A stretch of 37,715 nucleotides of DNA from Acidobacteriota bacterium. GTDB lineage: Bacteria > Acidobacteriota > Vicinamibacteria > Vicinamibacterales > Fen-181. Where the stretch lies: positions 1 to 37,715 of the forward strand of contig JADGOB010000025.1 of assembly GCA_017883185.1 (NCBI GenBank), given 5' to 3'. This document shows, piece after piece, positions 9,298 through 37,715 of this stretch (its first letter is position 1; each line of letters opens with the position of its first letter). The position numbers and the translations under genes are program-made. The notes beneath the pieces are model-generated. The model did no database searches and was not told the origin of the DNA. It was given only the letters and a program-made list of their open reading frames with translations.

Positions 9298-10653
9298 CTA
9301 CCGGTAGGCCGCGTGGAAGGCGGCCAGGCGCTCCACCACCTGCTCGATCTCTCTCGTCGGCGGCAGGATGGTGGTCCGGAAGTGCGCGGTGCCCGGGATC
9401 TGCCCGAACCCGGTGCCTGGCACCACGCAGATGCCGGTCTGTTCGAGCAGCGTCATGCAGTACTCCTCGTCCTTGCGCCCCGCCGGCAGCGTGATGCGCG
9501 GGAAGGCATACATCGCGCCGGCCACGGCGTTGCACTGAATGCCCGGGATCCGGTTCAGCCCGTCGGCCAGCAACGTGGCCCTGGTCTTCAACTCGCCGAG
9601 GATGCCGTCGCGTTCCTGCGCGTAGCGATCGTACGACGGCTCGCCGGGTTTCGGCGGACGCACCATGCAATAGGTGGCCACCTGGCCGGTGAGATTCGCA
9701 CAGAGCGACACCGACTGCAGCTTGGTGATCTGTGCCACGACGTCGGCCGGCACGTTCCGCACTTCCATGTAGCCGCCGCGCTGTCCGCACTCGCCCAGGA
9801 ATCCCTTGGAGCACGAGTGGAAGCTGAAGAGGCTGACGTCGGCCTCGCCCGTCTCCGTCATCACGCGCGCAAACGACACGAAGCGATCGCCTTGCAGGTA
9901 CACGTTCTCCTGGTAGACCTCGTCGGCGAGAATCGCCAGGCCGTGCGTCTTCGCGAAGTCGATCAGCATCTCGATGTTGTCCCGATCGAGCACAGAGCCG
10001 GTCGGGTTCCCTGGGTTCAGCGCGCAAATCGCCTTCACCCTCACGCCGTAGCGACGCGCCTCCTGGAGGCTCTCCGCCAGCATCGACTGACTCAACTTCC
10101 AATCGTGGCCCTCGTCGAGGTAGTAGCCAACCTGCTTCCCCTCGTAGAGCGTGATGGTGGCGCTATACAGCGGGTACTGCGGGATCGGAATCATGATCCC
10201 GTCCTGCGGACCGCTGATCAGCATCCGCAGCGCGGTCTGAACGCCCTTTGACGCGCCGTCGGTCAGGTAGATCGCCTCGGGATCGGCTTCGATGGCGTCG
10301 CGCTCGCGGATGAACTCGGCCACCGCCTCCCGGATGAACCGCACGCCCTTGCTCTCCGAATACGCGCCGAGCCCGTACCTGGTGCCCTTCAAGATCCTCC
10401 CGGCCGTCTCAATGACGTCGGGCGGAAACAGGTCGCCGGCCCGATGCATGAGGTCCGGGTACTGGCACAGCGCGAGCACCTGCCGCAGATACGTCAACGG
10501 GCGCTGCTCGAGCGCCTGCGGGTTCCCGATGTTGCAGTAGATGATCTCCTGTCCCTGGCGCTCCAGTTCCTGCGCGCGGGCGACGATGGGTCCACGAACG
10601 GCGTACTCCGTTTCGAGGACGGCCTTGCCGATCTCCTTCAGCTGGATGGTCAT
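9298..10653 (-). CDS. Alanine aminotransferase-like PLP enzyme (class I/II)
   Basis: The 451-residue protein is a fold-type I aminotransferase: GNPQALEQRPLTYLRQVLA near the N-terminus, LTDGASKGVQTALRML, ALNPGNPTGSVL, LADEVYQENVY, and SFHSCSKGFLGECGQRGGY with the PLP-binding lysine in SCSKG. The long insertions and this active-site sequence fit the eukaryote-like alanine transaminase (GPT) subgroup, which exchanges alanine and 2-oxoglutarate for pyruvate and glutamate. Close relatives can use other amino acids, so the substrate is inferred. The start at ATG 10653 (MTIQLKEIG) is preceded by GAAAGGACC; a longer frame to 10731 adds 26 unconserved residues. It stands 120 bp downstream of the VanZ-domain gene. 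Confidence 0.9.
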   Translation of the reverse strand: MTIQLKEIGKAVLETEYAVRGPIVARAQELERQGQEIIYCNIGNPQALEQRPLTYLRQVLALCQYPDLMHRAGDLFPPDVIETAGRILKGTRYGLGAYSESKGVRFIREAVAEFIRERDAIEADPEAIYLTDGASKGVQTALRMLISGPQDGIMIPIPQYPLYSATITLYEGKQVGYYLDEGHDWKLSQSMLAESLQEARRYGVRVKAICALNPGNPTGSVLDRDNIEMLIDFAKTHGLAILADEVYQENVYLQGDRFVSFARVMTETGEADVSLFSFHSCSKGFLGECGQRGGYMEVRNVPADVVAQITKLQSVSLCANLTGQVATYCMVRPPKPGEPSYDRYAQERDGILGELKTRATLLADGLNRIPGIQCNAVAGAMYAFPRITLPAGRKDEEYCMTLLEQTGICVVPGTGFGQIPGTAHFRTTILPPTREIEQVVERLAAFHAAYR

Positions 10654-22486: not shown

Positions 22487-23845
22487 TTATCTGACAGATC
22501 CGACCACGGCTGTCCAAGCCGGCGGACGACGTTCTTGACCAGGACTGAGATCCGACGAGGCATGACAGGGCCGCAGGCTCCGCCCGCGGCTGCCGCCTGG
22601 CGCCAGCAACAGAACCTGGATGTCGCCGACGTTGGTATCGGTGGGACCGGTGATCACCAGGTCGCCGAGCGCCTGGAAGTAGGTGTAGGCGTCGTTGTTG
22701 CGGAGGTAGGCATCGACGGCGCCGATGCCCGCCTCCTCGCTCCGGCGAAACGTGCTCTCGTCGGCCATGGCCCCGGCAGCGTCCGTTGGACCATCCACGC
22801 CATCCGTGCCGCCGCTGAGCAAGGCGGCGGGTCTCCCGAGACCCGCCAGCGCACCGACAACCGACAGGACCAGTTCCTGGTTCCGGCCGCCCCGGCCGAA
22901 GCCAGTCACGCGAACCGTGGTTTCGCCCGTCGCGATGACGCATGTTTCCGCGCTCGCGTTGTCGGCCAGGCGCACCGACTCCTCCACGAACCTGGGACCC
23001 GCGACACGAGCCTCGCCGACCACCGGCTCCGGCAGGACCATGGCGCGGTATCCCATGGCCTCGGCGGCCCTCGCAGCGCCGGCGGCGGCATCCGTGCGGG
23101 AGCCGATGACCCGCGTGGTGACGTGGCCCAGACGCGGATCGGCGGGCTTGGGTGTTTCCGGCAGCACACCGTTCGCGCCGCGCCGCAGAAGCGTCACGAC
23201 CGCCTGCGGGTAAGCCTCGACGCCGCCAAAGCGCGCCAGAATGTCGAGGGCCTCCGCGAACGTGCCGGGGTCGGGAACCGTCGGCCCGGAACCGATGATG
23301 CTGAGGTCGTCATCAACCACGTCGGAAATCGCGAACGCCAGCGTCGGCGCGACGGCTGCGGCCGCCAGTTGTCCGCCCTTGATGGCGGAGAGGTGCTTCC
23401 GCACGGTGTTCAGCGCGTGGATGTCGGCACCAGCCAGGAGCAACCGCCGCGTCGTCGCCTGTTTATCCTGGAGCGTGATGCCGGGGCGCGGGAGCGCCAC
23501 CAGCGATGAGGCCCCGCCCGACAGGAGCACGAGCAGGAGATGATCGGCGGGGACACTCCGCGCCAGTGCCAGCGCGCGCTCGCCGGCCGCGACGCTTCGC
23601 GTGTCAGGAACCGGGTGGCTGCTCTCCAGCCAGACGAGCGGCGACGTCAGGTCGGCCGGGCCGTGAGTCCCGACGGCGATGCCGGCGACGATGCGAGCGG
23701 CGCCGGTCCATCGACCGAGCGCGGTGGCCATGTGGGCCGACGCCTTGCCGAGAAGAAGGACATGGACCGGACGGTCCAGCAGGTGGCGGTGTCCGGGGAA
23801 AGCAAGAGCCGATTCGAGCAAGCGCGGCGCGCTCGACGCCTCCAC
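22487..23845 (-). CDS. Glycerate 2-kinase (GckA/MOFRL family)
   Basis: The protein shows the family pattern: VLLLGKASAHMATALG, SSHPVPDTRSVAAGERAL, VLLSGGASSLVALPRPGI, LNTVRKHLSAIKGGQLA, ISDVVDDDLSIIGSGPTVPD, and the C-terminal MOFRL motif FGRGGRNQELVLS then LLSGGTDGVDGPTDAAGA. It phosphorylates glycerate to 2-phosphoglycerate. GTG 23845 gives 452 residues but misses a conserved-looking helix: the frame upstream reads LSPLLTRFRRDLLAIFRAAV, typical of the family's N-terminus. No ATG, GTG or TTG lies in that stretch; a CTG at 23902 overlaps the stop of the preceding gene as CTGA. The true start is therefore probably upstream of 23845. About 35 residues after GDIQVLLL are a non-conserved tail. 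Confidence 0.88.
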   Translation of the reverse strand: MEASSAPRLLESALAFPGHRHLLDRPVHVLLLGKASAHMATALGRWTGAARIVAGIAVGTHGPADLTSPLVWLESSHPVPDTRSVAAGERALALARSVPADHLLLVLLSGGASSLVALPRPGITLQDKQATTRRLLLAGADIHALNTVRKHLSAIKGGQLAAAAVAPTLAFAISDVVDDDLSIIGSGPTVPDPGTFAEALDILARFGGVEAYPQAVVTLLRRGANGVLPETPKPADPRLGHVTTRVIGSRTDAAAGAARAAEAMGYRAMVLPEPVVGEARVAGPRFVEESVRLADNASAETCVIATGETTVRVTGFGRGGRNQELVLSVVGALAGLGRPAALLSGGTDGVDGPTDAAGAMADESTFRRSEEAGIGAVDAYLRNNDAYTYFQALGDLVITGPTDTNVGDIQVLLLAPGGSRGRSLRPCHASSDLSPGQERRPPAWTAVVGSVR

Positions 23846-23898
23846 GGCCGCTCGAAAGATTGCGAGAAGGTCCCGACGAAAACGTGTGAGGAGGGGGC

Positions 23899-24189
23899 TC
23901 AGTTCACCTTCTTCGGGTCGGACCAGGCCGACAGATTCGTCACGACATCGAATTGTCTCAGCAGGTGGCCCATCAACTGGTCAGCGTCCTTCGACCGGCA
24001 AAGTTGATCAAGGCGAGCGAGCAATCGGCCGAGTGCCTGCTCGGCCGATGAATACGCGCGCTCCGAATAGTACTCGCGCTGGCGACGGAGGCAGCGCTGA
24101 TGCTTGATCAGTTCCTCGCGGTAGAAATCAATCTGGATACCCGGACGCTGAACGCTTGATGGCCACTGGTCGGTCACGAAGCCATGCAT
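23899..24189 (-). CDS. Hypothetical protein, 96 residues
   Basis: The start at ATG 24189 (MHGFVTDQW) is preceded by AAGGAG at good spacing. The product is helical and charged (REELIKHQRCLRRQREYYSE, QALGRLLARLDQLCRSKDAD) with no signal peptide or membrane helix. I recognise no family. The coding stretch is visibly lower in GC than its neighbours, which may mean transfer or weak selection. Its stop overlaps a CTG in the glycerate kinase frame, suggesting coupled translation. Confidence 0.6.
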   Translation of the reverse strand: MHGFVTDQWPSSVQRPGIQIDFYREELIKHQRCLRRQREYYSERAYSSAEQALGRLLARLDQLCRSKDADQLMGHLLRQFDVVTNLSAWSDPKKVN

Positions 24190-24292
24190 GCGACTCCTTA
24201 AGCAGTCAGGGAAATCACGGTAGGCACTTTCCAGTCTAGTGGTGGCCCGAGTACCTGTCAACGGCGACCAAATCACTCCGGGCACTCGGTCG

Positions 24293-25183
24293 TCATCGCA
24301 GACGTCGCGCGGCCACGAGACCGCCGACGCAGCCGACGAGCATCCCGCCCAGCAGGATCAGCGCGACCGCACCGGCCGAGAGGAACTGGATCGCGTTCCC
24401 GTCCACCAGGCCCGAGGCGACGGCCGCCAGAGGTGGCCGCGCCAGATCGAGGCCGGCGCGAAGGAGCACGAGGGCCAGGATCGCGCCCGAGCCGCCCTGG
24501 ATGATCCCCTCGCACACAAAGGGGCCGCGGATGTACGACATCGGCGCGCCCACCAGTTCCATGATCTCCACCTCGTCGCGACGCGCGTAGAGCGCGAGCC
24601 GGACGACGTTGGTGACGGTCAGCCCGGCGGCGAGAACCAGCACCGCCGCCAGCGAGAGGCCCGCCCACCGGATGAACACGATGAGCGACGCGAACCGGTC
24701 CAGCCATTGGCGGTCGTATCGAACGTCAGCCACGCCGGACATCGTCCGCAGGCGTGTCGCGAGCGTCTCGAGGGCAGAGGCGTTGACCGCGGACGAACCC
24801 AGCCTGACCTCGAACGACGCCGGAAACGGATTGCCCGGAGCGCCGGCCGTCGCGGGCGCCAGTTCGGGGAAATCGCGCCTGAACCTGGCGAGCGCCGCCT
24901 CTTTCGTTACGACGTCCACACCGGCGATTGAGGCATCGGCCCGGAGCGCCCGTTCGACCGCGCCGCGCTCGACCGGCGTGGCTTCGTCGCGGAGGTAGAC
25001 GGAGAACTCGGCCGATCGGCTCCACTCGCTCACCGTGCGCTCGAGGTTCGCGCTGAGGAGCAGGAACAAGCCGAGCACGAAAAGCGCGATCGTGATCGTG
25101 AGGATGGACAGGACGCTGGAACGGCGACCGCGCCACAGGCTGAGACACGCCTCGGAGAGGAAGTACTTCAGGCCGCCGATCAC
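24293..25183 (-). CDS. ftsX: Cell-division protein FtsX
   Basis: The 296-residue protein starts at GTG 25183 and has the FtsX plan: a cytoplasmic N-terminus (GLKYFLSEACLSLWRGRRSS), first helix about 24-44, an extracytoplasmic domain (FSVYLRDEATPVERGAVERA onward), and three C-terminal helices with the conserved RRDEVEIMELVGAPMSYIRG. With FtsE it forms an ABC-type complex that activates peptidoglycan hydrolases at the septum. It lies 16 bp after ftsE in the usual order. Confidence 0.93.
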   Translation of the reverse strand: MIGGLKYFLSEACLSLWRGRRSSVLSILTITIALFVLGLFLLLSANLERTVSEWSRSAEFSVYLRDEATPVERGAVERALRADASIAGVDVVTKEAALARFRRDFPELAPATAGAPGNPFPASFEVRLGSSAVNASALETLATRLRTMSGVADVRYDRQWLDRFASLIVFIRWAGLSLAAVLVLAAGLTVTNVVRLALYARRDEVEIMELVGAPMSYIRGPFVCEGIIQGGSGAILALVLLRAGLDLARPPLAAVASGLVDGNAIQFLSAGAVALILLGGMLVGCVGGLVAARRLR

Positions 25184-25199
25184 GCGCCACCCCCGCCGG

Positions 25200-25859
25200 T
25201 CATGCCGTCTCCACGAGTCGGCCGTGGTCGAGCGTGATCGCCCGGCGTCCGACGTGCCGAATCAATTCACGGTCATGCGTCGCCACGAGGACGGTCGTGC
25301 CCGTGCCGTTGATCTCCCGGAACAGGTTCATGATGTCGAGCGCGAGGTCGGGGTCGAGGTTCCCCGTCGGCTCATCCGCGAGCACCAGCACCGGCTCGTT
25401 CACCAGCGCCCGCGCGATGCCCACGCGCTGCTGCTCGCCGCCCGACAGTTCGACGGGATAGGCGTTGGCGCGGTGCTGCAGGCCCACCCACTTGAGCACC
25501 TGGAACGTCCGCCGGCGCTGCTGCACGTCGGGTACGCCGAGGATGCGCAGGGCGAACATCACATTCTCGAACACGGTCTTGCGCGGAATGAGCTTGAAGT
25601 CCTGGAAGACGAACCCCACCGCCCGGCGGTAGGCCTGGACGTCGGCCGGCGCGAGCGCGGCCAGGTCGCGGCCGTCTACCTTGACGTGCCCGCCGGTCGG
25701 CATTTCCTGCCGCAGCAAGATGCGGAGCAGCGTCGTCTTCCCCGCGCCGCTGGCGCCCGTCAGGAAGGCGAACTCTCCCCGGTCGACATGAAGGGTGATG
25801 TCGTCGAGCGCAAAGACGTCGCGAGCGTAGAGCTTCGAGAGCCCTTCGATTTCGATCAC
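25200..25859 (-). CDS. ftsE: Cell-division ATP-binding protein FtsE
   Basis: The 219-residue ABC ATPase begins at GTG 25859 (IEIEGLSKLYARDVFAL); an in-frame ATG at 25889 would add ten residues. Walker A (TGASGAGKTTLLRILL), the Q-loop (FVFQDFKLIPRKTVFENV), the signature (LSGGEQQRVGIARALV), Walker B (VLVLADEPTGNLD) and the H-loop (VATHDREL) are all present. The QDFKL sequence and short length identify FtsE among ABC ATPases. It is the partner of the following ftsX. Confidence 0.95.
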   Translation of the reverse strand: MIEIEGLSKLYARDVFALDDITLHVDRGEFAFLTGASGAGKTTLLRILLRQEMPTGGHVKVDGRDLAALAPADVQAYRRAVGFVFQDFKLIPRKTVFENVMFALRILGVPDVQQRRRTFQVLKWVGLQHRANAYPVELSGGEQQRVGIARALVNEPVLVLADEPTGNLDPDLALDIMNLFREINGTGTTVLVATHDRELIRHVGRRAITLDHGRLVETA

Positions 25860-25880
25860 GGTGGCTCGTTCGACTGCCGC

Positions 25881-25896
25881 CCCGGGCATGCCCGGG
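25881..25896. repeat. Perfect 16-bp palindrome in the ftsE 5' region
   Basis: CCCGGGCATGCCCGGG is its own reverse complement. It covers the alternative ATG of ftsE (25889). In the mRNA it could form a hairpin with no loop, or it may be chance in GC-rich DNA. Confidence 0.4.
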
Positions 25897-25974
25897 ACAA
25901 CGACATGCAGGCGCCGCCGAGTATAGCACGGCGTCACGGACCGGCCGGCCTGCAGGCGGCCTGGCGCTCGGTGC

Positions 25975-28503
25975 CTACCTGGCCTCGTACCGATCGAGTT
26001 CGGCCCGGAACAATCCGAAACCGGTCTCGATCTCCAGTACCAGCGGAACTCGCCGCGCGTCGGCACTGATCCACAGCGTCGTCCGCACGCTGGGAGCACG
26101 GCCGCCCGAGGACGACAGGCGCGGGCTGACACGGAACGCGTCCACCTGGCCACCCGCGTGCGCAATCTGTTCCACGCGTTCGACAGTCAACTCCACCACG
26201 TAACTACGGCTGCCTTCGACCACCGGGAACCGGGCGGTGTACCCGGCCGCGAGCGGTAGCGCCCGCGCGTAGTAGAACGCGCTCAGCCCGTCGCGCGCGC
26301 CGCGAGGCAGCGGCAGCGCCGGCCCTTCGCCGATCGTGACGGTTCGGGCCGCCGGGTCGAACCGCGTGGCCCGATCCACGACGCGGCGCCCCTCGCGCAA
26401 GTGCTGTTCCTGTCGGACCGGGAGCAGCGAGGCGTCCGTCCAGGTCTCGATGCGGTCGCGCGCTTCGAAGAAGCGGGCTACCCAGTTCGCGGTCTCGACC
26501 TCCACCGCGAAGTGGCGCGCGGCGTCGGCGGACGGGAGTGGGAGCCCGGTGTCGCCGGCTGTCGAGGCGGTGAACGTGGCCTGCCCCGCGGCCACCCCCA
26601 CGGCGGCCCCGCTGAGCCACATCACCCGATAGACCGCTCTCTCACGCGATGGAAACGGCAGCGGCCCGGCGGCGGGCGGCGCCGGCAGTTCGGGACGCGG
26701 CATCGCCGCTTCAGCGTCGGGCGTCCAGCGCAGTTCGTAGATCGTCTCCCCTCCAAGCCTCGCACGCTCCACGAGGGGACCGTCGGCCGACATGGCCAGA
26801 GGGCTCGGAGTCACGACGAATCGCACGTTGAGATCCCGCAGCGTCCACAGCGCGTCCGCAGAGGGCACCTGGTTCAGCGTGTCCACGAGGCCCATGAAGA
26901 AGGCGGGGCGCTGGCCGCTGTAGCCGTTGACGATCGGCCGCCGATGCTCGAGGGAGCGCACCATCGCCGGCGTGTTGCCCAGATCCGGGTCGAGCGGCAG
27001 GTGAAGGACCGCGCCGGCACCCGGCTCGCCGGCCAGCCACTGCCCCACCGCCGTCGCCCGCGGCGGGGCCGCGACGGTCGGGAGCGGGACGTTGACGTAT
27101 TCGAGCCCGGCGAGCGCGATCATGGCGAACGGCCAGGCCGTCAAGACGCCACGGCGCGCCGGCACGACGGCGGTTCGGCGACGAAGCCCTTCGATGCACA
27201 AACACGGCGACGTATTTGTGCCCTCAGGACTTCGTGCTGAGCGAGCACAACCGGCCACGTGCGCCGAAAACCGATCGTGGCCGTAATGGCGAGTCGAAGT
27301 ACGAAGGAGTTCACCGACTCCGAGCGCCGCGAGGACACTGAGGCCGAACGTGACGAGCACGCCGAAGCGCGCAGGCGCACGCACCGCCTGGAATCCGAAC
27401 ACGAAGCGGTGCAGCAGGGAGTACAACCAGCGGACGCCGTCCGGGCCCAGCGACAGGATGCCGCCGGCCAGGATGACCGCCGCCATCGCCAGCACCAGCG
27501 GCCGGCTGTCGCGACGCCAACCGAACCATGCCCCGACGATCGCGAGCCCCGTCAGCACGAACCCCGGGAACAACTCCTGCTCGGGCCCCTCGTGCCGGCT
27601 GGAACTGGCGGCAGACTCGGCGGGCGGCCGCAGCAGGCCGGTCCTCCCGTAGAGCAGATTCCCCGGCGGCACGCGCAGGTAGCTGGCCGCGAGGGCTTCA
27701 TGTTGCGACGCCTCGTAGAGGTTCCTCGCAAACCCCTCCCGCTGCTGAACCTGCCAGTACGGCCAGGCAAACGGCGCGACGAGCACGCTGCCAACGACCC
27801 CGGCGAGCACCAGGCGCCGCCATGTCGCCCCGCTTCTCCACCGCCCGATGCCCGCGGCAAGCGCGCACGCGCCCAGGACGAGCGCGAGCGCGCCGATGAC
27901 GCCCCAGTAGACGGACGAGATCGCCTGCAGCGCGGCGACCAGGCCGAGCCACACCGCGTCCCGCCGTCGGCGCCCCGCCATCAGGCGGTGCAGGCACAGA
28001 AACGTGAGCGGCATCCAGTAGAGCGACTGTAACTGGAGGTGCAGCAGGTGCGCGAAGTGGAAGGGCATGAAGCCCCAGGCCGTCCCGGCCAGCAGCGCCC
28101 CGGCGGGCGACCCGGTCACCGCGCGCGCGAACGCGTACATCGCCACCACGCCCCCGGCGAGCGATCCGAACAGCAGCGCGTTGTAACAGAACGTCAGGCT
28201 GCCCGTGACGAGGGAGACCGGCACCAGTAGGAGCGCCTGCAGGATCAGGTGATCGGAGTACGCGAGGGTGCGTTCCGCGGGGAAAAAAATGTTCGCGTTG
28301 AAGATTCGACCGGTGAACAGCGCGATCGGATCGCGGGTGATCGTGCCGAGGTCCCACCCGAGAATCCACAGGTTGAGATACGGATCACCGGGCCCCGTCG
28401 GCGCGACGAGGCGGGTGAACGGATGGAGCGCCAGCGGCCACGTCAGCACGGTCGCCGCGATCGCGGCCCACAGGACGACCACGACACCCTCACGCCACCT
28501 CAC
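25975..28503 (-). CDS. Large polytopic membrane protein, GT-C/YfhO-like, with C-terminal DUF3108-like domain
   Basis: The 842-residue protein starts at GTG 28503, overlapping the gatB stop as GTGA. The N-terminal 420 residues or so have about ten hydrophobic helices and an early loop with GDPYLNLWILGWDLGTITRD, the acidic loop seen in GT-C-fold glycosyltransferases and YfhO-like proteins. An extracytoplasmic part (GAVLHLPLDPDLGNTPAMVR, RRPIVNGYSGQRPAFFMGLV) follows. From about residue 620 it changes to a beta-rich domain (RAVYRVMWLSGAAVGVAAGQ ... RVPLVLEIETGFGLFRAELD) resembling DUF3108 periplasmic proteins. Residues about 398-459 are an odd, less GC-rich insert with DNA hairpins. Function is probably surface polymer assembly, but only by analogy. 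Confidence 0.75.
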   Translation of the reverse strand: MRWREGVVVVLWAAIAATVLTWPLALHPFTRLVAPTGPGDPYLNLWILGWDLGTITRDPIALFTGRIFNANIFFPAERTLAYSDHLILQALLLVPVSLVTGSLTFCYNALLFGSLAGGVVAMYAFARAVTGSPAGALLAGTAWGFMPFHFAHLLHLQLQSLYWMPLTFLCLHRLMAGRRRRDAVWLGLVAALQAISSVYWGVIGALALVLGACALAAGIGRWRSGATWRRLVLAGVVGSVLVAPFAWPYWQVQQREGFARNLYEASQHEALAASYLRVPPGNLLYGRTGLLRPPAESAASSSRHEGPEQELFPGFVLTGLAIVGAWFGWRRDSRPLVLAMAAVILAGGILSLGPDGVRWLYSLLHRFVFGFQAVRAPARFGVLVTFGLSVLAALGVGELLRTSTRHYGHDRFSAHVAGCARSARSPEGTNTSPCLCIEGLRRRTAVVPARRGVLTAWPFAMIALAGLEYVNVPLPTVAAPPRATAVGQWLAGEPGAGAVLHLPLDPDLGNTPAMVRSLEHRRPIVNGYSGQRPAFFMGLVDTLNQVPSADALWTLRDLNVRFVVTPSPLAMSADGPLVERARLGGETIYELRWTPDAEAAMPRPELPAPPAAGPLPFPSRERAVYRVMWLSGAAVGVAAGQATFTASTAGDTGLPLPSADAARHFAVEVETANWVARFFEARDRIETWTDASLLPVRQEQHLREGRRVVDRATRFDPAARTVTIGEGPALPLPRGARDGLSAFYYARALPLAAGYTARFPVVEGSRSYVVELTVERVEQIAHAGGQVDAFRVSPRLSSSGGRAPSVRTTLWISADARRVPLVLEIETGFGLFRAELDRYEAR

Positions 28504-29942
28504 TGCCGCTCCAACTCGCGCTGGAGCAGCGCGTTGACGACGGCCGGGTTCGCCGTTCCGCGAGTGGCCTTCATCACCTGCCCGACGAAGAAGCCGAACA
28601 CCAGCGTCTTCCCCGCCTTGAACTGCGCGACCGGCTTCGGGTTGGCGGCCACGACGTCGCGCACGATCGCGGCCAGGGTCTCCCGGTCATCGATCTGCGC
28701 AAGACCCTCGCCACGCACGACGTCGTCGGCGGTGCGCCCGCTGCCCCACATCTTCTCGAACACCTCCTTGGCCATGCTCCCGCTGATCGTCCCCGCCTCG
28801 ACCACCGCGATCAGCCCGGCCAGCGCCTCGGGCGTCACACCCGCCTCTTCGATCCCGGCGCCCGACTCCTTGAGCTTCCGCGGCACCTCTCCGGTCATCC
28901 AGTTGGCTGCTGCCTTCGGACGACCCGATGACTTCGCCACGGACTCGAAGAACCGCGAAACGGCCGCCGAGCCGGCCAGCAGCGCGGCGTCGTAGTCCGA
29001 GAGGCCGAACTCGACCATCAGTCGCTGTCGCCTGGCGTCCGGCAACTCGGGCATCCTCGCCCGCGCCGCCTCAATCCGATCGGCAGCGATGGCGAGAGGC
29101 GGAAGATCCGGTTCCGGGAGGTAGCGGTAGTCGTGCGCCTGTTCCTTGCTGCGCATCACCACGGTGCGGCCGGTGGCGACGTCCCAGAGTCGCGTCTCGT
29201 GCTCGACCCGCATCCCCTTCTCCAGCACCGCCTCCTGACGCACGATCTCGTAGTCCAGCGCCCGTTCGAGGTAGCGGAACGAGTTCAGGTTCTTGACCTC
29301 GACCCTCGTCCCGAGCGTCCCGTCGCCGGCCCGCCGGAGCGAGACGTTCGCGTCGCAGCGCACGTGCCCTTCTTCGAGGTTGCCCCCGTTGACGCCCAAC
29401 TCCACGAGGATCGCCCGCAACCGCTCGAAGAACTCCGCCGCGTCGGCCGCGCTCCGCAGATCCGGGCGGGTGACGATCTCGATGAGCGGCACGCCGCTCC
29501 GGTTGAAGTCCACGTAGCTGTGTCGGTCGGAGTCGGCAAAACCGTCGTGCATCGATTTCCCGGCGTCCTCCTCGAGGTGCACGCGGATGATCCCCACTCG
29601 CGTCGTGGTCTCCCCGGTCGTCCACTCGAGCGCGCCGTCGAGTGCGAGCGGCCGGTCGTACTGCGAAATCTGATATCCCTTCGGAAGATCCGGGTAGAAG
29701 TAGTTCTTGCGGGCGAACACCGACACGGGCTGCACCCGGCACCCGAGCGCGAGCGCGGCGAGGATGGCGAACTCGACGGCCCGCGCGTTCAACACCGGCA
29801 AGGCGCCCGGCAGGCCAAGGCACACCGGGCAGACGAGCGTGTTGGGCGGGTCCCCCGCGCGAACCGCGCAGCCGCAGAAGATTTTCGTGTCGGTGGCAAG
29901 CTGGGCGTGAATCTCCAGCCCGATGACCGGCTCCCAAGTCAT
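28500..29942 (-). CDS. gatB: Asp-tRNA(Asn)/Glu-tRNA(Gln) amidotransferase subunit B
   Basis: The 480-residue protein begins MTWEPVIGLEIHAQLATDTK and has ARKNYFYPDLPKGYQISQYD, HLEEDAGKSMHD, YVDFNRSGVPLIEIVTRPDL, GHVRCDANVSLRR, RSKEQAHDYRYLPEPDLPPL and the C-terminal YqeY-like tail (EGLAQIDDRETLAAIVRDVV to FFVGQVMKATRGTANP). GatB is the kinase and tRNA-binding subunit of the GatCAB amidotransferase, implying that Gln-tRNA and/or Asn-tRNA are made indirectly. The start is ATG 29942; an open frame further upstream reads antisense to a receiver relic. No gatA or gatC is adjacent. Confidence 0.96.
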   Translation of the reverse strand: MTWEPVIGLEIHAQLATDTKIFCGCAVRAGDPPNTLVCPVCLGLPGALPVLNARAVEFAILAALALGCRVQPVSVFARKNYFYPDLPKGYQISQYDRPLALDGALEWTTGETTTRVGIIRVHLEEDAGKSMHDGFADSDRHSYVDFNRSGVPLIEIVTRPDLRSAADAAEFFERLRAILVELGVNGGNLEEGHVRCDANVSLRRAGDGTLGTRVEVKNLNSFRYLERALDYEIVRQEAVLEKGMRVEHETRLWDVATGRTVVMRSKEQAHDYRYLPEPDLPPLAIAADRIEAARARMPELPDARRQRLMVEFGLSDYDAALLAGSAAVSRFFESVAKSSGRPKAAANWMTGEVPRKLKESGAGIEEAGVTPEALAGLIAVVEAGTISGSMAKEVFEKMWGSGRTADDVVRGEGLAQIDDRETLAAIVRDVVAANPKPVAQFKAGKTLVFGFFVGQVMKATRGTANPAVVNALLQRELERQ

Positions 29943-29970
29943 GCCGGTATGGTAACAGAGGGGCAGACGT

Positions 29971-30174
29971 TCAGGCGCGGCCGTCCCGCGAGGCGCCACC
30001 GGGTGTCTCGAGCAGGATATCCGCGACGCCTGGGTCGCACGGCGCTTCCTCGAGCGTCCTGACCGCCTGCTCGGCGTTCGCCGCCTCCACCGCGGCACAC
30101 CCCAACCCCTCGACCCACTGGGCCACCAGGCCCCTGATGCCGGTTTCATCATCGACGACGAGCACGCGGTCCAT
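29971..30174 (-). pseudogene. Truncated response-regulator receiver domain
   Basis: From ATG 30174 the frame reads MDRVLVVDDETGIRGLVAQW, then EGLGCAAVEAANAEQAVRTL. This is the first half of a receiver domain with the acidic pair in VVDDE. Homology fades at DPGVADILLETPGGAS, where the phospho-acceptor Asp and the LMP.MDG loop should be, and the frame ends after 67 residues. The rest of the domain and any output domain are missing. It sits 28 bp before gatB on the same strand. Confidence 0.65.
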
Positions 30175-30244: not shown

Positions 30245-30904
30245 TCAGTCCGCCTTCACCAGCTCAGTCGGCTTCCGGCGGATGATCGTCCCATCCAGCT
30301 GATGCCGTTCGAGGCGGCGATATAGCGCCCGTCAGCTCAGGCCGAGCATCTTGGCGGCCACCTTCTTGTTGCCGCACGCGCGCCTCGGGGTGCGCGTGAT
30401 GTGGTCGCGCTCGATGCTCGCCAGCGACTCCGTGTCGTCGTCAGCGGGGACCTGCTCGGCGGTCACCTGCACCATCGCGTTGGAAAAGCTCGGCGGCGCC
30501 AGCTGAAGGGGCGGGTCGATCGTGGCGGGCAGGGTGACCGCGAGATCCTGCTCGGTGATCAGGTCGCCCTCAGCCAGGATGCACGCGCGCTCGACGACGT
30601 TTCGAAGCTCGCGGACGTTGCCCTCCCAGGCGCTGTCGATGCCGGCGTAGCCCGTCATCAGGATGACTTCGCACCCGGGGACCGTCTCACGAATCGCACG
30701 CAGGACGTCGAGACCGTTGACGTCGGGCATGCGCAGGTCCACCATGGCGAGGTCAGCGGGCTGGCGGCGCAGCTGCTCGAGGGCCTGCCGGCCTCCGGCG
30801 CAGGTGACGACGTCGAACCCCGCGCGCCGGGCAAAGCGGGCCACGACGTCGAGAATCCGATCGTTGTCGTCCACGAGCAGAAGCAGCGGATGCTGGGAAG
30901 TCAT
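30245..30904 (-). pseudogene. NtrC-type response regulator relic: AAA+ core deleted, nonsense codon in Fis domain
   Basis: From ATG 30904 (MTSQHPLLLLVDDNDRILDV) a receiver domain runs through MVDLRMPDVNGLDVLRAIRE to LMTGYAGIDSA. At about 30630 it joins in frame to WEGNVRELRNVVERACILAE, the end of the sigma-54-interaction AAA+ domain. All the ATPase core (Walker A, GAFTGA loop, Walker B), roughly 280 residues, is gone. A Fis-type domain follows (CGNKKVAAKMLGLS), then a TGA at 30334-30332 where family members have Arg (LSRRALYRRLERH). Past it the frame reads RALYRRLERHQLDGTIIRRK to the TGA at 30245-30247. The truncated 190-residue product could still be made, but it cannot activate sigma-54 transcription. 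Confidence 0.8.
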
Positions 30905-31025
30905 TGAACTCTCCACCCTCGCACGCTGGTGTGCGCGTGCGTCGCGCAGGGAAATGGGTACACCACTTGCCAACAGGGAAATCGGCGGCGTGGATGGAAG
31001 CTTGAAGAAACAGGCGCCTTGTTCG

Positions 31026-31961
31026 ATGCGGTGGGTCGCGGCTATCGCGTTCGCCGCCCTGCTGTATGCGTGCGCCTTCCGCCCACCGGCCCGGCCGCCG
31101 ACGACCGTTCCCGCTCGTCCGCCGACGGCGAGCACACTCCGTGTGCGGTCAGGTCGCGGCGTCGAGCGTGTGGCCACGGAGGATTACGTGGCGGGCTGCG
31201 TGGCGGCCGAGCTGGGCTCGATCGACGCCGACCCACCCTCAGCAGCACGGGCCCGCGACGTACAAGCGATCCTCTGCCGCAGCTTCGCCCTCGCCAGTAT
31301 CGGACGTCATCGTGACGAGGGCTTCGACCTCTGTGCCACCACCCACTGCCAGGTCTACCGTCCCTTGCCCGCCACGGTGATCGGACGGTTGGCCCGCGAA
31401 GCGACGACGCGGACCACCGGCCTCGTCCTCCTGGTGGATGGGTGGCCGGTTCTCCCGGTCTATCACGCCGATTGCGGCGGCCACACGAGCGGGGCGGAGG
31501 ATGTGTGGGGCGGGACCGGGGTGAGTTTCCTGGTCGGGGCGAGAGACGAGGCGTGTCCGCGCCGGCCGGCGTGGCGCCTCGAGGTGTGGTTGGCCCGCCT
31601 CGAGGACATTCTCGCTGAAGACCCGCACACCGCCGTCAACGGGCCGCTTCGGGGCGTGGCGATCGAGCGGCACGACGCGGCCGGCCGGGCGGCGTTCGTC
31701 CGGCTCGATGCCCGGCCGCCGCGAGTCGTCCGCGGTGCCGACTTCCGGACGGCGCTGCTGCGCGCCCTCGGCCCGACGTCACTCCGGAGCACGCTGTTCG
31801 CCGTCTCCCGGCGCGGCAATGCGCTGGTGTTCGAGGGACACGGAAACGGGCACGGCGTGGGGCTCTGCCAGGCCGGGGCTATCGCCCGCGCGGCCGGGGG
31901 CGACCAGCCCGCGGCCATCCTTGCGCACTATTTCCCCGGCGCCACGGTCGGCTCCAGGTAG
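31026..31961 (+). CDS. SpoIID/LytB-domain lipoprotein
   Basis: The 311-residue protein from ATG 31026 has a short signal peptide and lipobox-like LYAC with Cys16, then a Pro-rich linker. The SpoIID domain follows: VERVATEDYVAGCVAAELGS, AILCRSFALASIGRHRDEGF, LCATTHCQVY, YHADCGGHTSGAEDVWGG, and the C-terminal GHGNGHGVGLCQAGAIARAA then ILAHYFPGA. SpoIID-type enzymes cleave glycan strands of stripped peptidoglycan. In non-sporulating bacteria such proteins are envelope or septal factors. In-frame ATG 30954 (after AGGGAA, very close) and TTG 31002 are alternative starts that would give a longer, more basic N-terminus. It is divergent from the NtrC relic. Confidence 0.85.
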   Translation: MRWVAAIAFAALLYACAFRPPARPPTTVPARPPTASTLRVRSGRGVERVATEDYVAGCVAAELGSIDADPPSAARARDVQAILCRSFALASIGRHRDEGFDLCATTHCQVYRPLPATVIGRLAREATTRTTGLVLLVDGWPVLPVYHADCGGHTSGAEDVWGGTGVSFLVGARDEACPRRPAWRLEVWLARLEDILAEDPHTAVNGPLRGVAIERHDAAGRAAFVRLDARPPRVVRGADFRTALLRALGPTSLRSTLFAVSRRGNALVFEGHGNGHGVGLCQAGAIARAAGGDQPAAILAHYFPGATVGSR

Positions 31962-32089
31962 GAGGCCTGGTCTGGTCAGGAACGGGGCACCAGGGTCTGA
32001 TCCGTGCGCGAGAGCGCACGCCTGTGTTCAAGTTCGCTCACGATCCGCCGATTGACGTTGGAGCGGGTGGTAGCGACACCCAAGATGGC

Positions 32090-32637
32090 ATGGTGGCGAT
32101 GACAAGTGTGCTCCTGGCCGAAGACGACCCGTTCATCCGGCGCGTGTCGGAGGTGTCGTTGAAGCGCGCGGGCTTCACCGTGCGGTCGGTCGGAGACGGG
32201 ACCGAGGCGCTGCAGTTGCTCGAGGACGGTCTCGTGGACCTCGTGATCCTCGACGGCCTGATGCCGACGATGGATGGCCTCGAAGCCTGTCGTCGCCTGA
32301 AAGCGAACCCCCGGACTGCCGCCATCCTCATGCGGATCATCGACGACACCAGCGAGTTGAAGTCCCTCGAGCACCTCGGGTACGATCAGGCCACCGTCGA
32401 GCGGTTGACGCGCGTGCTCAAGCTCCCCGACGGGCTGATACTCTTCACCGGGCCCACAGCATCGGGCAAGACGACGGGACTCTACGCGAGCCTGAACCAG
32501 CTTCGCGACGGCCGCACGAACATCGTCGCGTGCTGGAGCTTGGCGCCGACGACTACCTGATCAAACCCTTCGAACCGGGAGTCCTCGTCTCCCGTGTGCG
32601 GGCGGCGTTCCGGCGCGCTAGCCGGCACGTGGCATAG
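32090..32637 (+). pseudogene. Response-regulator receiver gene interrupted by a GspE/PilB ATPase fragment
   Basis: From ATG 32090 or 32099 ([20 protein letters not shown]) the frame is a receiver domain with [20 protein letters not shown] and RTAAIL. At about 32330 it becomes [20 protein letters not shown], then [20 protein letters not shown] (Walker A) and [11 protein letters not shown] to about 32527, the core of a type II secretion/type IV pilus ATPase. After that the receiver resumes in another frame as [20 protein letters not shown] to [15 protein letters not shown] and the TAG at 32635-32637. The original frame stops at 32560. The receiver is thus split at its fourth strand by about 198 bp of foreign coding sequence. 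The Hpt gene starts one base after the original stop. Confidence 0.85.
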
Positions 32638-32638
32638 C

Positions 32639-32980
32639 ATGAGCGACCAGGCTGACGAACTCGAAGCGATGCTCGCGGGGATGCGGCCGCAGTTCCTCGA
32701 CACGGCCGCCGAGCGGGTCTCTGTCATCTCCGAGGAAGCGTCAGGTCTTGCCATTGCGGTCGACCCGGTGGCGTCGCTCACGCGGCTGGTGCGGGAGGCG
32801 CACACCCTCAAGAGCGGCGGCGCCATGTTCGGTTTTTCTTCGCTCGGCGATGCCGGCGGCCGAGTCGAACAGATCGGCAAGGCACTCCTCGCCGGCGGCG
32901 TGCCTCTCCCCGGGATCGAGCCTCTTCACGAGGCCGTCGCTGCCCTTCAGGGCATTCTCTCGGCCGCCCGCAACGGCTAA
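32639..32980 (+). CDS. Hpt (histidine phosphotransfer) domain protein
   Basis: The 113-residue protein starts at ATG 32639, one base after the stop of the interrupted receiver gene. It is one Hpt four-helix bundle with the phosphorylated His in LVREAHTLKSGGAMFGFSSL, followed by GRVEQIGKAL. Hpt proteins pass phosphate between receiver domains in phosphorelays. It was probably cotranscribed with the adjacent receiver before that was broken. Whether it still serves another kinase is unknown. Confidence 0.85.
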   Translation: MSDQADELEAMLAGMRPQFLDTAAERVSVISEEASGLAIAVDPVASLTRLVREAHTLKSGGAMFGFSSLGDAGGRVEQIGKALLAGGVPLPGIEPLHEAVAALQGILSAARNG

Positions 32981-33095: not shown

Positions 33096-33176
33096 ACCCG
33101 GACGAGCCTCTTTGGTTCCGACTCGACCGGGTTATGAAGACAGGCGGTAAACGTTTTGCCGGGCGCATCGTAGTTC

Positions 33177-33887
33177 ATGGCAGGAGAGAACCGGGGACCG
33201 AGAGATCCGCGCATGCAGAATGCACCAGAGGAAACCGCGCTGTCGGATGTGCCGGTGGAAACGCTGCCGGTGTCCCTGCCCGCTCTGACCCGCCCCGACG
33301 AGGATTCGCGGATTGCCGCCGAGGTCAAGGCGTTCGTGCGCGACGGGAACCTGGCGGCCGCCCGAGACCATTTCGCGGCCCTGGTCGTGCGACAGCAACG
33401 GCGGGCGTCGAGGATCGCCTATCACTTCCTGCGGGACGCCGCGGACGCGGACGAGGCGGTGCAGGATGCCTTCGTGAAGGTGTTCTCGCACATCGAGTCG
33501 TTCAGGGAGGACCTCCCGTTCGAGGTCTGGTTCACCCGGATCCTGATCAATGGCTGCCTGGATCGGCAGAAAGCCCGCCGGCGCCGTGCGCGGTGGATGA
33601 TCCCGTCGCTCGACGTCGAACAAGGAGAACGGTCGCGGACCGAGTCGGTCCCGAGCCACGGTCCCTCGCCCGAAGAATTGTTGCTCTTGCGTGAGCGTCG
33701 TACGCAGATCGCGTCGGCCGTCGGCAAGTTGCCCGAGAGGCAACGTACGATCTTCCTCTTGTGCCACTACCAAGGGTGCTCGTCGAAAGAGGTCAGCACG
33801 ATCACGGGGCTGAACGAATCGACCGTTCGCGTGCACCTGTTTCGCGCCGTCCGCAAGCTGCGCTCGTTGCTCGGAGGGAACCTATGA
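33177..33887 (+). CDS. ECF-type RNA polymerase sigma factor
   Basis: The 236-residue protein has region 2 (HFAALVVRQQRRASRIAYHF, then LRDAADADEAVQDAFVKVF and EVWFTRILINGCLDRQK) and region 4 (LPERQRTIFLLCHYQGCSSK, then ITGLNESTVRVHLFRAVRKL). A Pro/Glu-rich linker lies between them. The N-terminal 45 residues are extra. ATG 33177 is used; ATG 33213 (MQNAPEE) is a possible later start. Its stop overlaps the ATG of the zinc-finger anti-sigma gene as ATGA, the usual ECF/anti-sigma arrangement. Confidence 0.92.
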   Translation: MAGENRGPRDPRMQNAPEETALSDVPVETLPVSLPALTRPDEDSRIAAEVKAFVRDGNLAAARDHFAALVVRQQRRASRIAYHFLRDAADADEAVQDAFVKVFSHIESFREDLPFEVWFTRILINGCLDRQKARRRRARWMIPSLDVEQGERSRTESVPSHGPSPEELLLLRERRTQIASAVGKLPERQRTIFLLCHYQGCSSKEVSTITGLNESTVRVHLFRAVRKLRSLLGGNL

Positions 33888-34525
33888 AAATGGATCGCTT
33901 TCATCCCGCTGATGACCGGCTCATCGCCCTCTACTTCGGCGACGGAGAGGCCAATGCCGAGGAACGGCGAGCCGTGCGACAGCACCTGCATGGATGCGAG
34001 ACGTGCACGTGGCGGTACACCGAATTGACCGCCCCGCTCGAGCGGTTGCGCCAGGATGCAGCCAGCGAGGCGGACGAAGTGTTCACACCGTCCCGGCTCG
34101 ACGCGCAGCGGGCCCGGATCCTCGACACGCTGGCCGAAACCGCCCACGCGTCCCGCGTGATCCCGTTCCCCGCGGGCACGACCCGTCTCGACCGGTCGGT
34201 GGTTCGTCGTCCGATCGCCCGCTGGGTGGCGGCGGCGGCCGCAGCCGGGCTCCTCGTCGGTGTCATGGCTGGCCGGCTCCTCGACACTGGAACCGGCCCG
34301 TCGGTGTCCCCCGCGCCGGTCGTTCGCTCCACCAAGGCGACGATCGCGGCTCCGACCCTCATCAGCGACAGCCCGATGCCAACGTTGACCGGAGAACGTG
34401 ATGAGGCGATGTTGAGCGAGATCGATCAGGCGGTGTACAGCCAGCGCATCGCCGCGCTCTCGGCGCTCGACCAGCTGACGCCTCACATCCGCCAGGAGAC
34501 CGTTCTCGCCAGGGCCATCCGCTGA
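33884..34525 (+). CDS. Zinc-finger anti-sigma factor, membrane-anchored
   Basis: The 213-residue protein begins MKMDRFHPADDRLIALYFGD and has the ZAS motif H34-x3-C38-x2-C41 (RQHLHGCETC), which binds the cognate ECF sigma. One hydrophobic helix at about 105-126 (RWVAAAAAAGLLVGVMAGRL) leads to a periplasmic C-terminal tail. GGAGGGAA just upstream and the ATGA overlap with the sigma gene support ATG 33884. The stress sensed is unknown. Confidence 0.88.
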   Translation: MKMDRFHPADDRLIALYFGDGEANAEERRAVRQHLHGCETCTWRYTELTAPLERLRQDAASEADEVFTPSRLDAQRARILDTLAETAHASRVIPFPAGTTRLDRSVVRRPIARWVAAAAAAGLLVGVMAGRLLDTGTGPSVSPAPVVRSTKATIAAPTLISDSPMPTLTGERDEAMLSEIDQAVYSQRIAALSALDQLTPHIRQETVLARAIR

Positions 34526-34547
34526 CGTATACTGAATAGATAGAATT

Positions 34548-34623
34548 CAGAAGTCAGAAGTCAGAAGTCAGAATCCGGACGGCGGAAGTCTGGAGGCAGA
34601 AGACTTCTGGATTCTGACTTCTG
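34548..34623. repeat. CAGAAGT direct repeats and 15-bp inverted repeat before ispH
   Basis: CAGAAGT occurs three times head to tail from 34548, followed by CAGAATCC. The sequence at 34562-34576 (CAGAAGTCAGAATCC) is exactly complementary to 34609-34623 (GGATTCTGACTTCTG), with 32 nt between. A nested GAAGTC/GACTTC pair (34585-34590 and 34602-34607) extends the fold. The structure ends ten bases before the ispH ATG. Confidence 0.9.
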
Positions 34624-34633
34624 TCTGTCCCCC

Positions 34634-35848
34634 ATGCCTGAACTGATCTATCGCAAAGGGTTCTCGCTGAAGCACGAGGTTGCCGGCGAACTGGAAGCCG
34701 ACTACCACAGTACGCTCGTCCAGGCGATCAAGACCGCCGACTTCCGGTATCAGCGCGGCCGCCTCACGGTCCACCTGGCCCGGGAGTTCGGGTTCTGCTA
34801 CGGCGTGGATCGCGCGGTGGATTACGCCTACCAGACGCGGCGCCGGTTCCCCGATCAGGCCGTTTACCTCACGGGCGAGATCATCCACAACCCGCACGTC
34901 AACGAGAAGTTGCGGGCGCTGGGCATCAAGTTTCTTTCGGATCCTGGCTGCGCGATCGAGGCGCTCGGCGCCGGCGACGTCGTCATCCTCCCGGCATTCG
35001 GCGTGACGGTGCGCCTGCTCGAGCAGTTGCAGCACCAGGGGTGCACGCTGGTCGATACCACCTGCGGGTCGGTGCTGAATGTCTGGAAGAACGTCCGGCA
35101 ATACGCCCGCGACGGCCAGACGGCGGTGATCCACGGGAAGATTCACCACGAGGAGACGCAGGCGACGGCGTCGCAGGCCACCGAGCAGCCGAACGGGAAG
35201 TACCTGGTCGTGTTGAATCGGGCGGAAGCGGCGGAGGTGTGCGACTACATCCGGAACGGCGGCGACAGCGGCGCCTTCCTCGAGCGGTTCGGGGCGGCGG
35301 CATCGAAGGGCTTCCACCCCGAGCGCGACCTGGGCCGTATCGGTCTCGCGAACCAGACGACGATGCTGATGTCCGAGTCGCTCGAGATCGCGGAGATGTT
35401 CCGGAATGCGATGGTCGATCGCTACGGAGCGGAGCGCCTGGACGAGCGGTTCCGCGCGTTCGAAACGATCTGCAGCGCCACGCAGGACCGGCAGGATGCG
35501 GTGGTGGCGCTGCTCGATGAGCACGCCCTCGACCTGATGCTCGTGATTGGCGGCTACAACAGCAGCAACACCACCAACCTGGCGAAGATCTGCGCCCACC
35601 GGCTGCCGACGTATCACATCGCGGACGTGCCGGCGCTGATATCGGCCGCAACGATCAGGCACAAATCGGTCAAGGAACGCGCCGAAATCGTCCAGACCGA
35701 CTGGCTGCCGCCAACGGGCCCCGTGTCCGTCGGCATGACGGCCGGCGCCTCCACGCCGGACAACATCGTCGGCATGGTCGTGGAACGGCTCTCGCGGTTG
35801 GTGAATTCTGACCCCGCGTCCTCTGTTTGCCCGCTGCCCTCCGGGTAA
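34634..35848 (+). CDS. ispH: 4-hydroxy-3-methylbut-2-enyl diphosphate reductase, long form
   Basis: IspH makes IPP and DMAPP in the last step of the MEP pathway and uses a 4Fe-4S cluster. The 404-residue protein has the three cluster cysteines in AREFGFCYGVDRAVDYAY (Cys55), VDTTCGSVLNVW and ETICSATQDRQDAV. It also has the substrate motifs LTGEIIHNPHVNEKL, HGKIHHEETQA, IGGYNSSNTTNLAKIC and GMTAGASTPDNIV. The extra N-terminal stretch (LIYRKGFSLKHEVAGELEAD) and overall length place it with the plant/cyanobacterial-type long IspH rather than the roughly 315-residue E. coli form. A repeat-derived hairpin ends ten bases before its ATG. Confidence 0.95.
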   Translation: MPELIYRKGFSLKHEVAGELEADYHSTLVQAIKTADFRYQRGRLTVHLAREFGFCYGVDRAVDYAYQTRRRFPDQAVYLTGEIIHNPHVNEKLRALGIKFLSDPGCAIEALGAGDVVILPAFGVTVRLLEQLQHQGCTLVDTTCGSVLNVWKNVRQYARDGQTAVIHGKIHHEETQATASQATEQPNGKYLVVLNRAEAAEVCDYIRNGGDSGAFLERFGAAASKGFHPERDLGRIGLANQTTMLMSESLEIAEMFRNAMVDRYGAERLDERFRAFETICSATQDRQDAVVALLDEHALDLMLVIGGYNSSNTTNLAKICAHRLPTYHIADVPALISAATIRHKSVKERAEIVQTDWLPPTGPVSVGMTAGASTPDNIVGMVVERLSRLVNSDPASSVCPLPSG

Positions 35849-35908
35849 ACGTCCCTCCCCCTCCTGTCGTAATTGTCAATGAGGTGCAGGAGTGTGTCGG
35901 GGGTGTTC

Positions 35909-36445
35909 ATGAAGCGAGTGGTCACAGCGGTGCTGTTGGGCCTGTTGCTGACGCCGTTCGCTGCGGCAGACCCGCATCGGACTGGCGTCCAGCGTCCGTC
36001 CCAGCCCGAACCCCAGGTGCGGGACGGGCAGCGGGGTGACCAGCGGGGCGGGCCGCCGGGAGGCGCGCAGCGGTCCAAATGGTGGCAGGACGAGAAGATC
36101 AAGGCCGACCTTCGGCTGGCGCCCGAGCAGACGGCGCGAATCGAGGAGATTTTCGAAACGGCGTTCCCGAAGATGAAGGACATATTCGACGACCTGCGCC
36201 GTCGCGAGGAGCAGCTCTCGAACCTGATTAGCGGCAACGACGTCACTGAAGTCCAGGTCCTGAAGCAGGCCGACCAGGTGGAAGCGGTCCGGAGTTCGAT
36301 GAGCAAGGCCCGCACCCTGATGCTGTTCCGCATGCGCCGGGTGCTGTCGGCCGACCAGCGGACGAAGCTGGCGGAAATCGAGAAGGCGCACGACAAGGAG
36401 CGCGGCCCGGGGCGTCTCCCGGAGCGGACCCCGACCGATCGATAG
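35909..36445 (+). CDS. Spy/CpxP-like periplasmic protein
   Basis: The start at ATG 35909 gives 178 residues: a signal peptide (MKRVVTAVLLGLLLTPFAAA), a Gln/Pro/Gly-rich linker, then two helical segments with LRLAPEQTARIEEIFETAF and RMRRVLSADQRTKLAEIEKA. The two repeated L-x-x-x-Q-type motifs identify the LTXXQ (Spy/CpxP/heavy-metal resistance) family of periplasmic chaperone-like proteins. A longer frame from 35873 would bury the signal peptide. It is directly followed by a TolC-like gene, a frequent arrangement ahead of RND efflux systems. Confidence 0.82.
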   Translation: MKRVVTAVLLGLLLTPFAAADPHRTGVQRPSQPEPQVRDGQRGDQRGGPPGGAQRSKWWQDEKIKADLRLAPEQTARIEEIFETAFPKMKDIFDDLRRREEQLSNLISGNDVTEVQVLKQADQVEAVRSSMSKARTLMLFRMRRVLSADQRTKLAEIEKAHDKERGPGRLPERTPTDR

Positions 36446-36491
36446 AATGCGCTACGCCCTCATTCAATTCCCGAAGGTGGGAGGCAGATCC

Positions 36492-37715
36492 GTGAAGAAG
36501 TTGTTCAGCCCGATTCGAACCTTGTGTGTCGCAGCGTGTGCCGTGCTGGCGGTTGAGGGAACCCCCCACGCCCAGTCGGTCACACAGGCGACGGTTTCCG
36601 ACCTGTTGGCGCAGGCCAAGACCCAGTCGCAGACCATGCCACCAGCCCAGACCGGTGCCGTGACTCCCAACGCACCGGGCCTGGAACTGACGATGGATGA
36701 GGCGGTGGCCAAGGCGCTGCAGTTGAACATCGATCTCAGCGTGGCGCGGCTCAACCCGGAGCTCCAGGATTGGGCGCTGGCGCAGGCATACGGCGTGTAC
36801 GCCCCGACGCTCTCGTCGACGATCGGCGAACAGAGTCTGACCAGGGCGCCGGGCAGCCAGATCGGTGGCGGAGCGAAGGTCAAGACGAAGACGACGACGT
36901 ACAACTTCGGCGCCACCCAGGCCCTGAAATGGACGGGCGCGACGGCCAGCGTCAACTGGACCAACTCCCGCCAGGCCACCGACAACAATTTGACGACGCT
37001 CAATCCCCGGTTCGACGCCGGCCTGCAGGCGTCGATCACACAGCCCCTCGTGCGCAACCGGTCGATCGACGCCAACCGCCAGGCCCTGGTGACGGCTGAG
37101 ATCAATCGCCGTATCGCCGACATCTCGCTGAGGGCCACGACCATCAACACCGTGGCCAACACCAAGGACGCTTACTGGGATCTCGTCTACAACATCCAGG
37201 CGGTGGAAGCGGCGAAGACCTCCCTGGCGCTCGCGCAGAAGCTGGTCGAGGACAACAAGATCCGCGTTGAGATCGGCACACTGGCGCCGCTCGACATCGT
37301 GTCGGCGCAGGCCGAAGCAGCCACGCGTCAGCAGACCCTGGTGACGGCGCAAGGCAACCTGCAAACGTCGGAACTCGCGCTCAAGCGGATGATCGTCAAC
37401 GGCACGAGCGACCCGCTCTGGAACGCCCGGCTGAATCCTGTCGACCGACCGCCTACCAATGTCGAAGAGAAGATCGACCTGGAGGCAGCGCTGCGCACGG
37501 CCCTCGAGAACCGGACCGACATGGTCATCGCGAGGAGGAACCTCGAAATCAGCGACATCGGCCTGAGGTACCAGCACAACCAGACCCTGCCGGGCGTCGA
37601 TCTCATCGGCTCGTACCAGACGGCCGGCACAGGCGGCGTCCAGCTCAATCCCCCGCCCCCCGTTTACGGCGGCTACGCAGATGCGCTGAGCCAGCTGGCC
37701 AAGTTCCAGCTCCCC
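36492..37715 (+). CDS. TolC-family outer-membrane efflux protein (3' end outside window)
   Basis: GTG 36492 follows GGGAGGC at good spacing and starts a signal peptide (VKKLFSPIRTLCVAACAVLA, cleavage near PHA-QS). In-frame ATG 36447 would add 15 residues. The 408 visible residues carry OEP-type repeats: LTMDEAVAKALQLNIDLSVA, a beta segment region (YNFGATQALKWTGATASVNW), and helical parts such as VANTKDAYWDLVYNIQAVEA and GTLAPLDIVSAQAEAATRQQ. TolC proteins form the outer-membrane channel of efflux or type I secretion systems. The membrane-fusion and pump genes probably lie to the right. Confidence 0.9.
   Translation, partial: MKKLFSPIRTLCVAACAVLAVEGTPHAQSVTQATVSDLLAQAKTQSQTMPPAQTGAVTPNAPGLELTMDEAVAKALQLNIDLSVARLNPELQDWALAQAYGVYAPTLSSTIGEQSLTRAPGSQIGGGAKVKTKTTTYNFGATQALKWTGATASVNWTNSRQATDNNLTTLNPRFDAGLQASITQPLVRNRSIDANRQALVTAEINRRIADISLRATTINTVANTKDAYWDLVYNIQAVEAAKTSLALAQKLVEDNKIRVEIGTLAPLDIVSAQAEAATRQQTLVTAQGNLQTSELALKRMIVNGTSDPLWNARLNPVDRPPTNVEEKIDLEAALRTALENRTDMVIARRNLEISDIGLRYQHNQTLPGVDLIGSYQTAGTGGVQLNPPPPVYGGYADALSQLAKFQLP

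Follow-up and report, generated by a model that had tools for sequence, protein, structure and literature searches.

Probable decay of an NtrC-type response regulator gene in a two-component cluster that appears to be undergoing loss in an acidobacterial genus

Overview and features of the region

The regulator gene at positions 30904–30245 (minus strand) of the window is very probably an ordinary pseudogene, derived from a full sigma-54-dependent response regulator and lying in a cluster that is itself being lost. The window is the whole 37,715-nucleotide stretch of DNA analysed here (contig C33 of genome G000, a 4.85 Mb draft in 395 contigs), and the cluster, composed of two-component and pilus ATPase genes, lies between gatB and lytB/ispH. 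Two genomes of the same genus served as the main references: G001, the nearest relative (DNA ~95–96% identical here), and G004, which carries an intact orthologue. The features discussed below are the following:

28500–29942, minus strand: gatB, intact flank and control gene
29971–30174, minus strand: HD-GYP response regulator remnant, directly upstream of gatB, aligning with residues 1–55 of the 342-residue G004 protein; the remainder is deleted
30245–30904, minus strand: probable NtrC-type regulator pseudogene (a cut receiver continuing in frame into a remnant of the AAA+ lid, a linker and a Fis-type helix-turn-helix broken by a stop; from translation, Pfam and alignment to relatives)
30332–30334, minus strand: TGA interrupting the helix-turn-helix in frame; the codon is CGA in G001 and CGC in G004 (alignment)
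30629–30631, minus strand: junction codon of the deletion, where 798 bp present in G001 and G004 are missing (alignment)
31002–31961, plus strand: SpoIID-like gene within the cluster, seemingly intact
32024–32560, plus strand: chimeric ORF, a single-domain response regulator receiver followed in frame by PilB/GspE ATPase residues 298–367
32512–32634, plus strand: C-terminal remnant of the PilB-receiver protein, residues 675–715, in a frame different from that of the preceding PilB piece
32594–32980, plus strand: Hpt-domain ORF, seemingly complete in the window, of which G001 retains only the tail

Structure of the regulator remnant

The minus strand of 30904–30245 translates to ...EVILMTGYAGIDSAWEGNVREL..., then ...KKVAAKMLGLS*RALYRRLERH.... 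The motif WEGNVREL begins at codon 93; codon 191 (30334–30332) is the TGA, which leaves a 190-residue frame from ATG to TGA. The initial annotation, made from the letters of the window, had described a receiver joined in frame to WEGNVREL and a TGA inside the Fis-type helix-turn-helix, and the translation bears out both. Its figure of about 280 omitted residues has to be lowered, since alignment to relatives gives 798 bp, or 266 codons. Its description of the AAA+ domain as cleanly removed does not hold: the cut also takes the end of the receiver (with the KPF lysine) and half of the lid, and it does not fall at domain borders, because the Pfam Response_reg match ends within the domain (positions 2–86/111) and the AAA_lid_14 match covers only positions 41–74/87. 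No Pfam match to Sigma54_activat was found in the remnant, and the match to HTH_8 (2–31/42, below cut-off) ends where the TGA stands.

The G004 orthologue resembles NtrC-family sigma-54-dependent response regulators in having all four domains (Response_reg, Sigma54_activat, AAA_lid_14 and HTH_8), with a receiver match at 2–110 and a lid match at 1–74; NtrC and AtoC are the NCBIfam models that fit it best, although neither match reaches its cut-off. The window copy differs from the family in having no Sigma54_activat domain, only half of the lid, and a receiver and a helix-turn-helix that both lack their ends. The G004 motifs KPF (codon 106), GETGTGKE (Walker A, codon 174), GAFTGA (codon 221) and GGTLFLDE (Walker B, codon 239) are all absent from it. 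Thus neither a complete receiver with its conserved lysine, nor an AAA+ core with Walker A, Walker B and GAFTGA, nor a whole Fis-type helix-turn-helix is present. Judged from its sequence, the remnant cannot act as an NtrC-type activator, because the ATPase is absent and both the receiver and the helix-turn-helix are incomplete, and it would give no functional product.

A deletion and two stop codons

When the window was aligned with G001 and G004, 798 bp were found to be missing from it. The ends of this deletion, as judged by eye from the aligned sequences, share almost no homology (1–2 bp in common). The G001 gene is otherwise of full length and its helix-turn-helix is open, but it carries a TGA of its own at codon 367 (in GNVREL*N), and the G004 orthologue is open across 486 codons. 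Both stops, that of the window and that of G001, are changes of CGA to TGA. Neither the deletion nor the TGA of the window is present in G001; therefore, both lesions would most simply have arisen after the two lineages split. Polarisation assigned only 6 base changes to the window lineage and left 9 differences unassignable, too few to put the two lesions in order. The kept frame over the junction is most likely luck, with a chance of roughly one in three, since a different lesion has disrupted this gene in G001.

The surrounding cluster

In G004 the gene order is gatB, HD-GYP response regulator, the regulator studied here, SpoIID-like gene, single receiver, PAS histidine kinase, MshEN-T2SSE ATPase with a C-terminal receiver, Hpt, sigma factor, an ORF that matches the zinc-finger ORF of the window, and lytB. 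In the window, a deletion of ~2.2 kb has removed the histidine kinase, which in G004 stands between the single receiver and the ATPase, and has thereby produced the chimera at 32024–32560 (plus strand), in which the Walker-A part of PilB/GspE is retained. In G001, the HD-GYP gene, the kinase and PilB are gone from their place, and the receiver, which is whole, is continued in frame by the Hpt tail. The window and G001 differ in their junctions, both within the regulator and from the receiver on. The gatB-side end of the HD-GYP deletion looks similar in both, so that a first deletion at this place may be common to the two. The HD-GYP remnant had seemed to rejoin its own C-terminus in frame, and among ungapped offsets the expected one scored best, but shuffles equalled it in 70 of 500 trials (48 bases) and in 89 of 1000 (72 bases). 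Taken together, these lesions point to parallel and ongoing loss of this regulatory cluster.

The frame is kept at 3 of the 4 deletion junctions in the cluster whose frame is clear, which would happen by chance with a probability of about 0.1 (the HD-GYP junction was left out of the frame counts). With a further sigma-54 activator remnant from the same genome (on contig C189, see below) the count becomes 3 of 5, or about 0.2 by chance at one third for each junction; both probabilities were calculated by hand. These counts bear on the idea that selection holds the deletions in frame, so that short expressed hybrids (receiver-lid from the regulator, receiver-PilB at 32024 and receiver-Hpt tail in G001) serve as tolerated or useful intermediates of gene loss. 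Frame retention among the junctions is not beyond chance, and we consider selection of this kind very unlikely.

Full-length relatives and relaxed constraint

A search with the window protein of 60 genomes, G000 included, gave as best matches outside G000, among the matches listed, G001 (92% and 87% identity for the two halves) and G004 (88% and 78%). Apart from the window's own, no match in that set covered both halves in one piece. A comparison with orthologous loci, which the initial annotation had suggested, did yield full-length versions: besides the full-length G001 gene and the intact one of G004, a total of 14 loci (G004 and 13 others, picked for well-matching receivers and not a census; L089 and L108, whose contigs are equally long and whose tails are identical, are apparently a single record) were read from receiver start to stop, and all of them are open for 462–486 codons, past the helix-turn-helix. 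Near-full-length matches to the G004 protein were found in 20 of 22 loci, partly overlapping with the 14, and the remaining two are cut by contig ends. Among plasmids, 587 records were matched, each at less than 60% identity in its best place.

Three candidates for short forms were rejected. Short frames matching the helix-turn-helix half in G003:C421 and G043:C745 are both cut by contig ends. The third, in G008:C273, is a receiver-less, frame-shifted fragment with a full-length copy on the same contig, and is not a receiver-HTH protein; this sigma-54 activator fragment (L125, 7592–8124) belongs to a genome of another family in the order.

Constraint was estimated from pairwise Nei-Gojobori counts between the window and G001. 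On both sides of the junction, where the initial annotation had suggested comparing codon substitutions, dN/dS is raised (0.52 in the receiver, 0.70 from lid to helix-turn-helix), against 0.15 in gatB, 0.15 in the ABC gene (without its first 100 codons), 0.23 in lytB and 0.27 in the ftsX-like gene. The pooled ratio of non-synonymous to synonymous differences is 19.5:10.5 in the regulator and 35:63 in the control genes (Fisher P = 0.003, rounded counts). Few substitutions carry this signal, since the receiver part has a single clear window-lineage change (D14N) and three more differences that are unpolarised. Of the polarised base changes, the window side has 2 synonymous and 4 non-synonymous ones (two of the latter in one codon) and the G001 side 6 and 9; another 9 are ambiguous. 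The receiver dN/dS to G004 is 0.10 from the window and from G001 alike, and that between G001 and G004 over the segment missing from the window is 0.09. The regulator was thus strongly constrained earlier, as the receiver value to G004 indicates, and much less so after the window and G001 split. Disruption relative to intact homologues and constraint relaxed relative to neighbouring genes, both expected of a pseudogene, are found here, the second on few substitutions.

The initial annotation had left two options, decay in progress or conversion of an activator into a small protein consisting of the receiver alone. The first is well supported by the full-length relatives, the independent TGA in the sister gene, the relaxed dN/dS and the broken neighbours. 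A small functional protein (receiver or receiver-lid) ending at the TGA would account for the kept frame and for the 190-residue ATG-to-TGA frame, but its receiver stops short of the conserved lysine, it has no ATPase and its helix-turn-helix is truncated. Moreover, the constraint expected of such a protein is missing (dN/dS 0.5–0.7), and the sister gene is disabled too, by a different lesion. Relatives conserving the short form without the TGA were looked for, and none of the 14 loci read has it. Remodelling into a small regulator is therefore very unlikely.

The cluster in other genomes

Neighbouring genes were scored as detected when more than half of the query was covered at an E-value of 1e-15; the genomes compared are mostly drafts. 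Outside the genus, parts of the cluster order, with gatB and/or sigma-lytB, were found in further families of the order (L111, L076) and also at L079 and L080, and G006 has a similar gene set away from gatB. In G002 (same genus), gatB, SpoIID, sigma and lytB are consecutive, with no signalling gene of the cluster detected between them. None was detected in G003 either (same genus, only 77% complete; two contigs, the second with the start of gatB beside SpoIID), nor in G005 (same family), where the SpoIID gene likewise went undetected. The best matches to the window protein anywhere in G002, G003 and G005, among the matches listed, are weak (E-values of 1e-17 to 1e-15).

As G000 is itself a draft, a metagenome assembler might have skipped 798 bp of a full gene, with the TGA as an error. 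However, the longest words common to the 60 bp around both breakpoints (7 bp in G001, 6 bp in G004) were judged too short for a k-mer misjoin. Both flanks continue at 95–96% identity with G001 (outside the cluster, 22844–29962 aligns as a single piece at 97% with one gap opening, and 33103–37715 at 95% with seven), the cluster holds several further separate lesions, and the sister, assembled separately, is broken as well. An artefact of this kind is hardly credible. Suppression or recoding of the stop, suggested by RALYRRLERH still being readable past the TGA, is extremely improbable, for the longer hybrid would regain the whole helix-turn-helix but still be without the ATPase and the receiver end.

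Proposed course of decay

For the regulator as a pseudogene, we propose that an ancestor encoded receiver, AAA+ and Fis-type helix-turn-helix domains in a sigma-54-dependent response regulator located between gatB and lytB/ispH, and that constraint on it relaxed in this lineage; we infer that loss of need for the cluster was the cause. After the split, the window lineage would have undergone a simple 798 bp deletion with 1–2 bp common to its ends and a C-to-T change turning CGA into TGA, and the sister would have acquired an independent CGA-to-TGA stop elsewhere in the gene. Retention of the frame over the junction would be an accident with a chance of one third.

That young pseudogenes are removed by deletion has been described for Salmonella (Kuo and Ochman 2010; PMC2916853). 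The present case is similar in its full-length relatives, its combination of nonsense change and deletion, its relaxed constraint and the loss in related lineages; it differs in concerning an acidobacterial lineage, compared across species and not as a population sample. One genus thus offers three stages of the cluster: whole in G004, breaking by different lesions in the window and G001, and undetected at its place in G002 and G003. It can serve as a worked example, and it cautions against taking an in-frame domain junction seen in a single genome as evidence for a new protein.

Related genes in the same genomes

T2SSE has 11 matches in G004 and 5 each in G000 and G001; of those in G000, one is the window remnant and one lies below the cut-off. 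We considered whether decay was caused by loss of the type IV pilus machinery and dropped the idea: the pilB-pilT-pilC stretch of G001:C42 (L113) has no close match in G000, but G000:C307 starts where C42 ends, so that an assembly gap is possible. There are 29 Sigma54_activat matches in G000, 45 in G004 and 28 in G001. Those of G000 comprise 22 that are essentially full, 4 weak ones in long frames and 3 short remnants: L116 (about 9740–10180, C189), whose AAA+ and HTH pieces do not share a frame; L117 (8014–8181, C99); and L118 (556–747, C138), less than 600 bases from a contig end and perhaps cut by the assembly. Finally, the PilB/GspE-type ATPase of G004 (L072, 4420–6567, minus strand) has a C-terminal receiver of its own (MshEN-T2SSE-REC), through which a two-component signal might act directly on a pilus or secretion motor.
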